Source of the DNA: Deltaproteobacteria bacterium
Lineage (GTDB): Bacteria; Myxococcota_A; Polyangia; Polyangiales; Houyiibacteriaceae
Direction: 5' to 3'
DNA: 32,916 nt
Assembly: GCA_004283055.1 (NCBI GenBank)
Contig: SHLP01000028.1
Location: 1 to 32,916, forward strand
The notes below the pieces were generated by a model. That model did not search any database and was not told the DNA's origin. It saw only the letters and a program-made list of their open reading frames with translations. Position 1 is the stretch's first letter. Each line of letters opens with the position of its first letter. Position numbers and translations under genes: made by a program. Shown one piece after another: positions 8,076 to 12,233 of the stretch.

Positions 8076-8420
8076 TTAGTCGATGGCTTCGACGACGGCT
8101 TTGAACCCGCCCGGATCGGAGTACGCAATCTCGGCGAGGACCTTGCGGTCGAGCGCGATGTTGGAGCGCTTGAGGCCCGAAATGAACTGGCTGTAGTTGA
8201 TGCCGTTGCTGCGTGCCGCGGCGTTGATTCGCGAGATCCAAAGGCGTCGGTATTCACGCTTCCTGGTGCGACGATGCTTGTAGGCATCTTGCCAGGCGTT
8301 GTGGACCTGTTCGATCGCAACGTGGAACGCTTTGCGTCGCGCTCCGTAATAGCCTTTGGCGTGCTTGAGCACACGATTGCGGCGGCGTCGGGCTTTGAAG
8401 CCTCGTCTGACTCTGGGCAT
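8076..8420 (-). CDS. rplT: 50S ribosomal protein L20
   Basis: A 114-residue basic protein of the large subunit that binds 23S rRNA early in assembly and, in E. coli, represses its own operon. The family opening MPRVRRGFKARRRRNRVLK and the later RRLWISRINAA and YSQFISGLK segments are clear. Length is normal. GGAGAAC precedes the ATG. It follows rpmI by 21 bases, the standard pairing. Confidence 0.98.
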   Translation of the reverse strand: MPRVRRGFKARRRRNRVLKHAKGYYGARRKAFHVAIEQVHNAWQDAYKHRRTRKREYRRLWISRINAAARSNGINYSQFISGLKRSNIALDRKVLAEIAYSDPGGFKAVVEAID

Positions 8421-8441
8421 GGGGCGTTCTCCTTCGAAGTC

Positions 8442-8642
8442 TTAGAGCTCGTAAGGAACCAAACGCCTGATGCGTGGTTCGTCGCTCGGGTGGACCATGG
8501 AGTTCTTCTTGAGCTTCCGAAGTCGATTGGCCGACTTACCACGCATGATGTGCTGCTTACCGGCTGTGGAACGACGAATCCGCCCTCCACCGGTAGCCTT
8601 GAACCGCTTCGCAGCAGCACGCTTTGTCTTCATCTTGGGCAT
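8442..8642 (-). CDS. rpmI: 50S ribosomal protein L35
   Basis: A 66-residue basic ribosomal protein. MPKMKTKRAAAKRFKATG is the canonical N terminus. The middle carries KQHIMRGKSANRLRKL and the end RIRRLVPYEL, all family hallmarks. The ATG at 8642 has GAGGA eight bases upstream; a longer open frame to 8669 adds nine residues outside the family. rpmI is the first gene after the promoter-like element at 8707-8734. In most bacteria infC would lie just upstream, but here a plus-strand gene intervenes. Confidence 0.96.
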   Translation of the reverse strand: MPKMKTKRAAAKRFKATGGGRIRRSTAGKQHIMRGKSANRLRKLKKNSMVHPSDEPRIRRLVPYEL

Positions 8643-8706
8643 CTGACTGTCCTCACTTTGAGCTCCCAAGCCAGCGGCACCCGCGGCCAGGGAGCGGAGA
8701 GCACGC

Positions 8707-8734
8707 GGTGTAGCGCGTGCCCCTCCCCGGTCAA
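8707..8734 (-). promoter_or_regulatory. Putative sigma-70 promoter of rpmI-rplT-pheST-ihfA
   Basis: On the minus strand TTGACC (8734-8729) and TACACC (8712-8707) are separated by 16 bases. The -35 matches five of six consensus bases; the -10 is of the GC-rich type. This would give an RNA leader of about 55-60 nt before the L35 start. A small hairpin (GCACGCG 8701-8707 with CGCGTGC 8714-8720) overlaps the -10. A local promoter is needed because infC is cut off from rpmI. Confidence 0.45.
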
Positions 8735-8875
8735 GGGGACACGCTCCACCTCCAAAATCCGTGTGGTTTCAAGTGCTTGAAAACCACACCGCGAAAACCG
8801 GGGCCGGGATCGGTTTTCGCGGTATGGCTCCTAAGTGCTTGAAAGGACTTCATTCTCGAAGGGGGAGCGTGTCCC
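8735..8875. repeat. Cluster of nested inverted repeats between rpmI and the plus-strand gene
   Basis: Three paired elements lie in 141 bases. The outer arms GGGACACGCTCC (8736-8747) and GGAGCGTGTCCC (8864-8875) are exact complements 12 bp long. Inside, GTGTGGTTTCAAG (8761-8773) pairs with 8776-8789 with one bulged A. Next, ACCGCGAAAACCG (8788-8800) pairs exactly over 13 bp with 8811-8823. The 12-mer AAGTGCTTGAAA is repeated directly at 8771-8782 and 8833-8844. The shape is of a multi-arm junction in RNA or a cruciform in DNA. It lies upstream of the presumed rpmI promoter and ends six bases before the next start codon. Function is unknown. Confidence 0.75.
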
Positions 8876-8881
8876 TACGCT

Positions 8882-9673
8882 ATGCTGCGTGTCGTGAGTG
8901 GATGGGGCTCCGATCGACGAACGGTGCTTGCGCTTTCGGTGGCGCTCGGCGCAGCGCTTTTGGTCATCGCATTCTTGCTGGGGCGTGATTCGGTGCGGAC
9001 AGTGCCGGGAAATGCCATCTTGGAGGAGGCTGCACGCCCGGCTGGCCTCGAACCTGACCCGGGCGAGCGCTCGACCGAAAAGGCGAGCCGCAGGCGCTGG
9101 CCCGCGTGGGCGGATTTGACCGATGAGGAGCCGTCAGAGCTTCGAGCGGCCGAAGCGGGCAGAGGCGTCGTCGAAAGGACCGAGGCGCATCCCACCGATC
9201 GTTTCGCGCTGACCCCGAGCTCAAGCCGACCGCAAACAGGAACTAGGCAAGACGCGCCGGCCGCCTCGCCGGCCAACCCGCAGGGACGGAGCGTGGGGTC
9301 CTATTTCCAAGAGGTCGACCTGATTCGGTCCGAAGAGGGTGCCGGGGATCCCAACGCGTTCGCGATGGATCTAATCAAGGGCGGCCTGGGAGGCGCAACG
9401 TCCGGGTTCGACCAGCTCATCGACGATACACGAGTGATGGAGCAGGAGATGCGGGGCGTGACCCCGCCCGCGTCCTGCGAGAACTATCACGAGGCCAGCA
9501 TCAAAGCTCTCGTCGAGAGCCGGGAAATGATCGAGCGCATGAAGCGCGCAATCGTCGGCCGAGACATCGGTGAGCTCAATGCGATCGCCTTTCAGTCCAA
9601 AGCGCTCCAGAGAAAGGCGCAGGCGCTGAAGGAGATGCGGCAAGGGATCCTGGCCGAGCAGGGCGCGAACTGA
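8882..9673 (+). CDS. Hypothetical membrane-anchored protein
   Basis: I do not recognise this 263-residue protein. One hydrophobic segment at about residues 14-34 (VLALSVALGAALLVIAF) follows a short basic N terminus, which suggests an inner-membrane anchor with the rest in the periplasm. Residues 40-140 are rich in Arg, Glu, Pro and Ser and look disordered. From about residue 145 a more ordered, helical domain follows, with YFQEVDLIRSEEG and a C-terminal heptad-like stretch (ALVESREMIERMKRAI). A single cysteine is at about residue 199. It points against the flanking infC and rpmI genes and ends nine bases before the infC stop. The ATG has no clear ribosome-binding site; a GTG at 8894 is an alternative. 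Confidence 0.7.
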   Translation: MLRVVSGWGSDRRTVLALSVALGAALLVIAFLLGRDSVRTVPGNAILEEAARPAGLEPDPGERSTEKASRRRWPAWADLTDEEPSELRAAEAGRGVVERTEAHPTDRFALTPSSSRPQTGTRQDAPAASPANPQGRSVGSYFQEVDLIRSEEGAGDPNAFAMDLIKGGLGGATSGFDQLIDDTRVMEQEMRGVTPPASCENYHEASIKALVESREMIERMKRAIVGRDIGELNAIAFQSKALQRKAQALKEMRQGILAEQGAN

Positions 9674-9682
9674 GGTAAGCGC

Positions 9683-10249
9683 CTACTTCGCCGTGTTCGT
9701 GGCTCTGACGCGCGGAGCGAGAATGGCGGTCATGGTGCGCCCCTCGAGGCGAGCGGAAGTCTCGATCATCCCGAGGTCCTCCACCGCTTCGACGATTGCG
9801 TCGATCTGGCGCTGCGCCGTCTCGGGGTGGGTGATCTCCCGGCCTCGAAAGCGGACGGTGATCTTTACCTTGTTGCCCTCTTCGAGGAACCGACGCACGT
9901 GCTTCGTCTTGAAATCGAGATCGTGGTCGTCGGTCTTCGGGCGAAGCTTGATCTCCTTGAGTGCGATCTGCGTCTGCCTCTTGCGGGTCTCCGCTTGCTT
10001 CTTTTTCTCTTCGTACTTGAACTTGCCGAAGTCCATGATCTTGCACACAGGCGGGCTGGCCTTCGGGTTTACCTCGACCAGGTCGAGGTCGAGCCCTCGA
10101 GCCATCCGACGTGCCTCGTCGGTGTTCAAGACGCCTAGCATTTCACCCTCAGCTCCGATGACGCGGATTTCGGGCACTCGAATGCGATCGTTGACGCGCG
10201 GACCGAAATCCCGCGGCCGATCGCGCGATCCAAAGCGCGGTCTAGCGAT
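9683..10249 (-). CDS. infC: Translation initiation factor IF-3, probable AUC start
   Basis: A 188-residue IF-3, the factor that keeps 30S subunits free and checks initiator tRNA pairing. The N domain has VNDRIRVPEIRVIG and GLDLDLVEVNP, and the linker is KFKYEEKKKQAE. The C domain has KEIKLRPKTDDHD and runs to AILAPR. No ATG or GTG lies between the thrS-overlapping region and the conserved sequence. An AAGAGGAG ribosome-binding site (10264-10257 region) stands six to seven bases before ATC at 10249-10247. The ATC start is chosen because infC is known to use rare start codons (AUU in E. coli) for self-regulation. An ATG at 10312 is in frame but would run 71 bases into thrS. Start and thrS stop overlap by eight bases. 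Confidence 0.93.
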   Translation of the reverse strand: MARPRFGSRDRPRDFGPRVNDRIRVPEIRVIGAEGEMLGVLNTDEARRMARGLDLDLVEVNPKASPPVCKIMDFGKFKYEEKKKQAETRKRQTQIALKEIKLRPKTDDHDLDFKTKHVRRFLEEGNKVKITVRFRGREITHPETAQRQIDAIVEAVEDLGMIETSARLEGRTMTAILAPRVRATNTAK

Positions 10250-12233
10250 GACTATCTCCTCTTGTTGAAGTCGTAGCAGAAGGCGGCTTGCTCTCCAGCG
10301 CGAGGCGGTCAAACACGTCCGATAGCGGGATGAACCCGAGATCCTTGTTTTCGTCTCGCGAACGGAGCGCCAATCCCCGTCCCTCTACTTCTTTTTGGCC
10401 AATCACACCAAGATACGGAATCCGCATCAGGCGAGCTTGGCGAATCTTTGCGCCCAGCTTGTCGCTGCTCAAATCGGCGGTGACCCGGAAGCCTCGTTCC
10501 TCGAGCTCTTGCTGCACGTTCTCCGCATACTCGTTGAACTTCTCGCTCACCGTCAACAGCGCGATCTGCTCCGGAGCGAGCCAGACGGGAAACGAGCCGC
10601 CCACGTGCTCGGTTAGAACCGCGAAAAACCGCTCGATGGACCCCAAAATTGCCCTGTGAAGCATCACCGGCCGGTGGGCTGTATTGTCCTCGCCGACGTA
10701 CGTCAGGTCAAAACGCTCCGGAAGGTTGAAGTCCGCCTGAATGGTGCCGAGCTGCCATGGCCGACCAATGGCATCTTTGAGGTGGAACTCGATCTTCGGT
10801 CCGTAGAAGGCACCTTCGCCCTCGGCGATTTCGTACGGCAGCCCTCTGGCTTTGACGGCCTGTTCCAACGCTCGTTCCGACTGGTCCCAGACCTCGTCGT
10901 CGCCAAGGCGCTTCTCCGGCCGCGTGGCGATCACGATGCGCACATCGGTGAACCCGAAGTCCCGATAGGCGTCGTACACCAGGTCGAGGAAGCTTTTGAT
11001 CTCGTCCTGCACCTGGTCGAGGGTGCAGAAGATGTGGGCGTCGTCTTGCGCAAACGTGCGAACGCGCGTCAGACCTTGCACCACCCCGCTTCGCTCGAAG
11101 CGATGGAGGCGACCAAAGTCGGCCATCCGCATGGGGAGGTCGCGGTAGCTGCGCCTGGTCATGCCGTACATGAGGCAGTGACTCGGGCAGTTCATCGGCT
11201 TCACGCCGAAGCGCAGGGACTCGCCGAACGCCTCCGTCCATTCCTCCGCGCTCTGCGGCGGCCTCTCTTCAATCCTATGCTGCAACTTCTCGAGGTTCTC
11301 AGACGTAGCCGCCATGTACATATTCTCTGCGTACGACGGCAAATGCCCGGAGGTGTGAAACAGCTCGTTGTCGAAGATCTGCGGCGTGATCACTTCTTCA
11401 TAGCCGTAGCGGACGTAGAGCGAGCGGACATAGCCTTCGAGGAGGTTGTAGATGGTGGAGCCGCGCGGTAGGAAAAACGGCGAAGCGGGCGCGTGAGGAT
11501 GGAACGCGAAGAGCTGAAGCTCCCTGCCGAGCTTGCGGTGGTCGCGCTTCTTGGCCTCCTCGAGCTGCTTGAGATGTGCGCGCAATGCCTTGGGCGAAGC
11601 GAAGGCCGTTCCATAAATGCGCTGGAGCATGGGGTTGCGCTCGTCGCCGCGCCAGTACGCGCCGGCGACACTGGTGAGCTTCACAGCCTTCAGGAAACCC
11701 GTCGAAGGAACGTGCGGCCCTTCGCAGAGGTCGACCCAGTCCCCGTGACGGTAGAGCGAAATCGGATCGTCGAGCCGCTCGAGGTGCTCCAGCTTGAAGC
11801 CCTCGTCGAGTGACTGCAAAATGCTCCGAGCTTCGTCCCTACTCACGACCTCACGGCGGAATGGGCTGTCGGCTTCGATGATCTCCGCCATCTTCTCTTC
11901 GATGGCACGAAGGTCCTCCTCGGAGAACGTGCCGTCGGGTCGGGCGTAGTCGTAGTAGAAGCCATCCTGCGTGGCCGGCCCGAACGCGACCTTGGTCCCG
12001 GGGAACAGCCGCTGCACCGCATCCGCCATGACGTGGGCACTGGAGTGCCGAATGATGGCGAGGGCGTCTGGATCGTGAGCCCCGATGGCCTTGACCTCAG
12101 ACGCAGCTTCGGGGACGGGGCTGTGCAAATCGTAGACTCTGCCGTCGACCCGAGCGGCGACCGTGTCCTTTCCAAGCGCGCCCCGCTCGTCGAGCGCCTC
12201 GCGCGCCGTATGCGCTTTCGCTTCGTTCGTCAT
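10242..12233 (-). CDS. thrS: Threonine--tRNA ligase
   Basis: A 663-residue class II synthetase that charges tRNA-Thr. A short N-terminal TGS-like region (to about residue 55) is followed by the editing domain with the HxxxH motif His63/His67 (HSSAHVMADA). The catalytic core has the zinc-binding Cys349 in MNCPSHCLMYG, the motif 2 region with RxFxRxGxxxGLxR-type sequence, and HRAILGSIERFF near the end. The C-terminal anticodon-binding domain contains PVWLAPEQIALLTVS. The ATG at 12233 fits the family but has a weak ribosome-binding site. thrS leads into infC, as in many bacteria. The upstream region 12234-12475 is shared with a divergent gene. Confidence 0.96.
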   Translation of the reverse strand: MTNEAKAHTAREALDERGALGKDTVAARVDGRVYDLHSPVPEAASEVKAIGAHDPDALAIIRHSSAHVMADAVQRLFPGTKVAFGPATQDGFYYDYARPDGTFSEEDLRAIEEKMAEIIEADSPFRREVVSRDEARSILQSLDEGFKLEHLERLDDPISLYRHGDWVDLCEGPHVPSTGFLKAVKLTSVAGAYWRGDERNPMLQRIYGTAFASPKALRAHLKQLEEAKKRDHRKLGRELQLFAFHPHAPASPFFLPRGSTIYNLLEGYVRSLYVRYGYEEVITPQIFDNELFHTSGHLPSYAENMYMAATSENLEKLQHRIEERPPQSAEEWTEAFGESLRFGVKPMNCPSHCLMYGMTRRSYRDLPMRMADFGRLHRFERSGVVQGLTRVRTFAQDDAHIFCTLDQVQDEIKSFLDLVYDAYRDFGFTDVRIVIATRPEKRLGDDEVWDQSERALEQAVKARGLPYEIAEGEGAFYGPKIEFHLKDAIGRPWQLGTIQADFNLPERFDLTYVGEDNTAHRPVMLHRAILGSIERFFAVLTEHVGGSFPVWLAPEQIALLTVSEKFNEYAENVQQELEERGFRVTADLSSDKLGAKIRQARLMRIPYLGVIGQKEVEGRGLALRSRDENKDLGFIPLSDVFDRLALESKPPSATTSTRGDSHR

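Follow-up and report, generated by a model that had tools for sequence, protein, structure and literature searches.

A palindrome beside rpmI as one copy of a small repeated element, apparently mobile, in a genus of uncultured myxobacteria

Transposons of the TIRYT kind, in the passages of Di Nocera et al. (2013; PMC3733652) covered here, consist of a Y1 transposase gene framed by long terminal inverted repeats (TIRs), many of which carry the motif GGGGWSAS, and the families of TIRs are found singly, as dimers or in groups. In the part of this literature covered, 20 of the 26 published TIRYTs belong to subclass 2.1, with a C-terminal HTH/DnaA_C domain. The passages of Di Nocera et al. (PMC3733652) also report that the ends of GTAG REPs often supply a TAG stop codon; within those passages, no such statement is made for TIRs. 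REPINs, according to the covered part of their description (PLoS Genet. 2011; PMC3116915), are inverted doublets that act as the mobile unit, with singlets as likely remnants and a linked RAYT gene, and compensatory changes are called common. The structure in PDB entry 4er8 is that of E. coli TnpA-REP bound to a REP hairpin. Searches of the literature for TIRYT, TIRtron and GGGGWSAS found nothing beyond PMC3733652 and PMC6006769, and among the matches listed for RAYT in the Myxococc literature no title was on the subject; the TIR-flanked branch of the REP transposases has hardly been studied.

The window analyzed here is a stretch of 32,916 nucleotides, contig 64 of a 4.31-Mb, 293-contig genome (G000) of an uncultured myxobacterium. 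A palindrome in it is interpreted as a non-autonomous miniature transposon that consists of an inverted pair of terminal repeats of a TIRtron (with a REP-associated Y1/HUH tyrosine transposase, TIRYT kind), with a REPIN-like layout and moved in trans; the probability of this reading is put at roughly 0.8. The features are listed below, where R1 is a sequence-only model of the repeat unit built from 18 sequences.

8735 to 8876, no strand assigned: the whole element, 142 bp, two inverted units of 62-64 nt with 62-nt cores 16 nt apart
8736 to 8799, forward strand: left unit, tip at 8735/8736 and inner motif CACACCGCGAAAACC ending at 8799 (R1 match, E 1.3e-16)
8812 to 8875, reverse strand: right unit, inverted (R1 match, E 8.2e-15)
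8735 to 8747, forward strand: left tip GGGGACACGCTCC, which fits GGGGWSAS (motif as given in the covered passages of PMC3733652); junction TCAA/GGGGAC
8864 to 8876, reverse strand: right tip AGGGACACGCTCC, one G shorter; junction GCGTA/GGGAC, with TAG across the junction
8788 to 8800, forward strand: inner motif ACCGCGAAAACCG, left copy
8811 to 8823, reverse strand: inner motif, right copy (inverted)
8707 to 8734, reverse strand: the neighboring rpmI promoter, TTGACC (8729-8734), 16 nt, TACACC (8707-8712), from an alignment of 17 genomes of the genus
8882 to 9673, forward strand: a 263-aa ORF between the element and infC
9683 to 10312, reverse strand: infC

An earlier note on this DNA had described a 12-bp and a 13-bp exact stem, a bulged hairpin and a 12-nt direct repeat, and all of them are present in the sequence. 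The exact arms pair 8736-8747 with 8864-8875 (12 bp) and 8788-8800 with 8811-8823 (13 bp), the direct repeat AAGTGCTTGAAA occurs at 8771-8782 and 8833-8844, and the local hairpin within 8761-8789 has GTGTGGTTT/AAACCACAC as its longest exact part. Overall, the structure is one imperfect palindrome with 65-nt arms (8736-8800 and 8811-8875) that are 72% complementary and spaced by 10 nt. Each unit has a tip (GGGGACACGCTCC), a middle (TTTCAAGCACTT) and an inner part (CACCGCGAAAACC); compared with GGGGWSAS, the left tip reads GGGGACAC at 8735-8742 and the right tip reads AGGGACAC, one G short. The claim that the structure exceeds chance was borne out by shuffling, since folding as good as that of the palindrome was seen in 0 of 200 dinucleotide shuffles on either strand, and any 12-bp exact inverted pair was present in 16 of 2000 mononucleotide shuffles. 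The fold z-scores for the two strands were -7.8 and -8.3 as DNA and -6.6 and -10.3 as RNA, the last on the rpmI strand. The site had been described as the insertion point between infC and rpmI. The palindrome does lie between those genes, but the 263-aa ORF separates it from infC, and its position is between the rpmI promoter and this ORF. This ORF, which is divergent from rpmI, begins at a distance of 5-6 nt from the element; neither Pfam nor NCBIfam gave a match to it at E 0.01.

The strong predicted folding (RNA z-score of -10.3 on the rpmI strand) and the retention of the palindrome at the rpmI locus in five related species both speak for a structured RNA of the rpmI operon, whether leader, sRNA or attenuator, a possibility raised in the earlier note. 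Against this, the palindrome lies upstream of the -35 box of a conserved promoter, the unit is found again at unrelated genes, and Rfam gave no match at its gathering threshold or at E 1 (three tRNAs were the sole matches in the window, and 8400-9000 had none at E 1). Conservation of pairing in relatives was looked for, and no compensatory change above shuffles was found. Pairing in the five rpmI orthologues was 86.7% compared with 86.3% in shuffles, of which 76 of 500 were as high, and one pair had changed on both sides. Between the two arms of 17 elements, variable positions were alike in 37.1% of cases within an element vs 38.8% for randomly re-paired arms (p 0.815); conserved positions were slightly more alike within elements (82.6% vs 80.5%, p 0.017). 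For the tip hairpin GGGGA/TCCCC, examined in 52 units with a search pattern that itself favors a constant 5' side, the 5' side was constant while the 3' side drifted, so conservation of that pairing is unsupported. An RNA role for the palindrome appears extremely unlikely on this evidence, and the hairpin appears to be incidental to the presence of one recognized sequence in two copies.

Further copies in the same genome, which the earlier note had proposed to look for, were abundant: R1 identified at least 25 units in G000 (E up to 0.01, with 150 scored out of 1381 first-look candidates). With blastn, the palindrome matched its own genome 44 times at E up to 10, many of these matches being a single place counted on both strands, and the 13-mer tip occurred 12 times exactly and 31 times with at most one mismatch, vs 5 for the reversed pattern. 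Matches to R1 at E up to 0.01 were obtained in 17 of the 19 genomes of the genus, including at least 46 units in G007 and at least 135 in G009, these counts being lower bounds with at most 150 first-look candidates scored per genome; within the genus, the count per genome ranges from 0 to at least 135. Outside the genus, R1 matched in none of 14 genomes from ten other genera of the family (E up to 0.001). A plasmid or phage origin found no support, as blastn at E 1e-3 gave no match among 72,556 plasmid records or 50,697 phage records.

The units are uniform in length and layout. Among 57 units found by a pattern permitting 48-68 nt, 52 measured exactly 62 nt from GGGAC to CGCGAAAA, and the rest measured 61 nt (three), 63 nt (one) and 54 nt (one); the tip, middle and inner end are conserved and the stretches between them are variable. 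The 46 units found in the one-contig relative G007 form 10 close pairs, all with tips outward, and 26 singlets, and a redundant count over all loci examined gave 59 outward, 1 direct and 0 inward pairs. A spacing of 16 nt between the 62-nt cores was seen in 5 of 17 dissimilar full elements, that of the window included. Two further observations concern the surroundings of the units. Several unit pairs in G009 (L144-L163) enclose about 240-1470 nt with other nested repeats, such as GCATACGGGG ... CCCCGTATGC, and several contigs of that genome stop inside these stretches. In addition, an IS30-family insertion sequence (assigned in the L010 copy by NF033563 at L010:1634-2617, E 8e-91) adjoins the same position within the tip, after GGAGCG, in three copies inspected by eye, two in G000 and one in G018 (L010, L017 and L089); this insertion sequence may target the repeat.

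Comparison of the rpmI locus among relatives (17 of 18 loci aligned, G004 left out) showed that five species (G000, G003, G012, G017 and G018) have the full dimer upstream of rpmI, G006 and G009 have a single unit, G007 has a degenerate one and the nine other aligned genomes have none. In the G018 copy, one tip holds what looks by eye like the end of an IS30-type insertion. The rpmI promoter (TTGACY-16-TAnAnn) is kept both where a unit is present and where it is absent, and the tip abuts the -35 box throughout the five-species clade, with one extra C in G012. Downstream of the promoter, the rpmI leader (8643-8706, reverse strand) contains a hairpin of 13 pairs, GCTCCC ... GGGAGC around an inner GC stem, in 16 of the 17 rpmI-aligned genomes (G018 left out). 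Eight of its pairs never vary, four change on one side and one on both, and 99% of cells are paired; covariation was not above shuffles and Rfam gave no match to it. This separate hairpin is a candidate ribosomal-protein leader.

Units lie flush against stop codons and the rpmI -35 box, and in some cases against start codons, a placement that would suit a sequence that now serves the host as a promoter, terminator or protein-binding site and that was spread by selection. A terminator or promoter inside the palindrome was sought by a scan of 8600-8960, which called neither; the strict promoter scan also did not call the rpmI promoter. The absence of a terminator-like site from this interval counts against a host site, as do the preservation of the rpmI promoter without a unit in 9 of the 17 aligned genomes and a unit count that runs from 0 to at least 135 among species of one genus. 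Present-day host use is thus a very improbable account of the family.

The transposon reading is linked to a specific type of enzyme by a gene in the same genome. G000 contains two Y1_Tnp genes above the Pfam cut-off (C82 and C95). The C82 gene (C82:54576-55226; domain match G000:C82:54618-54941) is framed by the unit, with the 5' tip at 54472 and the 3' tip at 55293, and its relatives in G003 and G018, 82-87% identical, also have a unit on both sides (three lineage-A loci). The H-V-H and Y-x3-N-P motifs are invariant across nine transposase proteins. The nearest PDB sequence is 4er8 (E 0.005), which is also the nearest fold (E 6.3e-7) to a predicted structure of the relative L240 (mean pLDDT 84.7), the protein folded in place of that of G000; the IS200/IS605 family (IS608 and ISDra2) is among the fold neighbors of this relative. 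The NCBIfam model REP_Tyr_transpos scored 52.8, below its cut-off of 80. Pfam at E 0.01 returned Y1_Tnp alone and no C-terminal HTH/DnaA_C domain of the subclass 2.1 type, and membership in that subclass is not claimed for the transposase. Its nearest named relatives are in metagenome-assembled genomes titled Polyangiaceae, Myxococcales or Deltaproteobacteria, and more distant ones are mostly from Burkholderiales. Ends were viewed at 18 of 33 relative loci: the 11 nearest have GGGACAC/G, on both sides in 10 and on one side in L249, and the seven betaproteobacterial loci have mostly other ends. The second Y1 gene of G000 (L058, C95) has different short ends, GGGGACAGTCCCC, on both sides.

A second transposase lineage, 45-53% identical, is found at a shared orthologous locus in eight species, immediately behind a presumed mglA gene and facing what is presumably leuS. 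Its ends are GGGGACAC/G-like with a different inner motif, and the 3' end was not seen in G006. Of 17 mglA loci, eight have the second-lineage gene, G007 and G009 have a unit dimer at that spot, G016 and G003 have a scar-like remnant, G000, G002 and G014 have nothing recognizable, and G011 and G013 have a different neighbor. The earlier note's proposal of a mobile palindromic element is supported by the dispersed copies, the unit-framed transposase gene and orthologous loci with and without the element. The resident transposase element is not a recent parent of the window copy, because the window arms match its ends at 38-41 of 62 positions, no better than they match each other (44 of 62).

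DDE-type elements, too, typically combine a tip with a binding site farther inside. That a DDE-type transposase rather than a Y1 enzyme moves the unit would fit its tip and inner motif at fixed spacing, and no Y1 transposase was detected in G007 or G009, the unit-richest genomes, which are 66% and 80% complete. On the other side, the sole unit-framed transposase gene found is Y1, in a search that covered Y1 alone, and inspection by eye of the flanks of full elements revealed no general target-site duplication, with CTAG on both sides of one copy (L008). A DDE enzyme is judged unlikely, and the element is probably moved by a REP-type transposase, as the framing of the C82 gene suggests.

The junctions carry a distinct signature. 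Among 150 distinct tips, with orthologues in different species counted separately and one tip without a clean G-run dropped, the dinucleotide directly 5' of the G-run was TA in 71 of 149 and AA in 32 of 149, the base before these being mixed; copies in different species are not independent. The background from 23,584 other runs of at least three G in the same loci was 2.0% TA and 6.3% AA. Where the outer flank was at least 330 nt long (111 tips), a GC3-supported frame ended within 60 nt in 59, and in 40 of these the stop was a TAG sharing the first G of the run. The other 19 stops lay just before the run in three cases (two TAA, one TGA) or elsewhere in 16 (seven TGA, six TAG, three TAA). A preference for TAG over other stops was considered (40 TAG of 45 flush stops vs a baseline of 113 TGA, 109 TAG and 33 TAA, p 1.4e-10) and dropped: a stop that shares the G of the tip can only be TAG, so the TAG excess among flush stops is partly forced and a comparison with overall stop usage proves nothing. 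These counts show that the first G of the tip very often completes a stop, and a choice among stops is not implied.

A clean empty site was not found among 11 joined flank pairs from 12 of 20 tabulated sites in four close relatives; where the unit is absent, a scar-like tip is left behind or the intergenic sequence is a different one. The few element-free loci are C267 in G012 and G018 and C89 in G018. At C89, G018 has the same TAG without the unit, and at C267, G012 and G018 have TAA where G000 has TAG; neither site is clean, and insertion at TA is compatible with both. The transposase site of G012 and G017 carries scars, so these look like losses and not empty sites. A tentative and rather doubtful extension of these observations is that TIRYT transposons cut and insert at TA, as a counterpart of the GTAG guide of REP transposases. 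An element entering the TA of a stop would rebuild TAG with its first G and so enter the very end of a gene harmlessly, a self-healing safe harbor that could have allowed more than 100 units to accumulate between genes.

By the transposon reading, the transposase would recognize the tip and the inner motif, as a single strand by analogy with TnpA-REP, would cut beside the TA(G) tag and would insert the dimer after a similar one. Copies that land flush behind a stop codon may survive because nothing is broken. The window copy would have inserted next to the rpmI promoter, on its upstream side, in a common ancestor of the five-species clade, with vertical inheritance thereafter. Several results weigh against the transposon reading: no Y1 transposase was detected in the two unit-richest genomes, both of them incomplete; the window arms resemble the ends of the resident transposase element only modestly; no clean empty site turned up; the flanks showed no general target-site duplication by eye; and the REP_Tyr_transpos score falls short of its cut-off. 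The genus, in which the number of units per genome varies from 0 to at least 135, a resident transposase occupies the same orthologous position in eight species and the tips show a sharp TA signature, lends itself to studying how such enzymes select their ends and targets and whether they share tag recognition with GTAG REPs.

The IS200/IS605 family (IS608 and ISDra2), which inserts behind a short sequence without duplication, resembles the present system through the fold of its transposases but differs in that the ends here are inverted repeats. With TnpA-REP and GTAG REPs, as portrayed in the covered parts of PMC8266576 and PMC6006769 and in PDB 4ER8, the system shares the HUH/Y1 fold and a short tag 5' of the recognized sequence, and TAG here resembles GTAG; it differs in having TIRs as ends and a tip hairpin that is possible in some copies only. 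As in REPINs, two REP-like units form an inverted pair, and 10 of 10 close pairs in G007 have tips outward. The units here, however, are about 64 nt, show no compensatory change above shuffles, in contrast to the covered account of REPINs, and have no constant GTAG beside them, the window having CAAG and GTAG. The closest likeness in the covered account of TIRtrons is a Y1 gene framed by TIRs and not GTAG REPs, a GGGGWSAS-type tip and single or paired units; the differences are that the hosts are a new group (uncultured Myxococcota), that the unit has a fixed length of 62-64 nt and carries a second motif, conserved at its inner end, and, relative to the same passages, that TA precedes the tip and in most cases gives rise to a TAG stop. 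The element thus appears to be of a kind already known, TIRtron/REPIN-like, and what is less described is the TA before the tip and the overlap of TAG with the first G of the tip.
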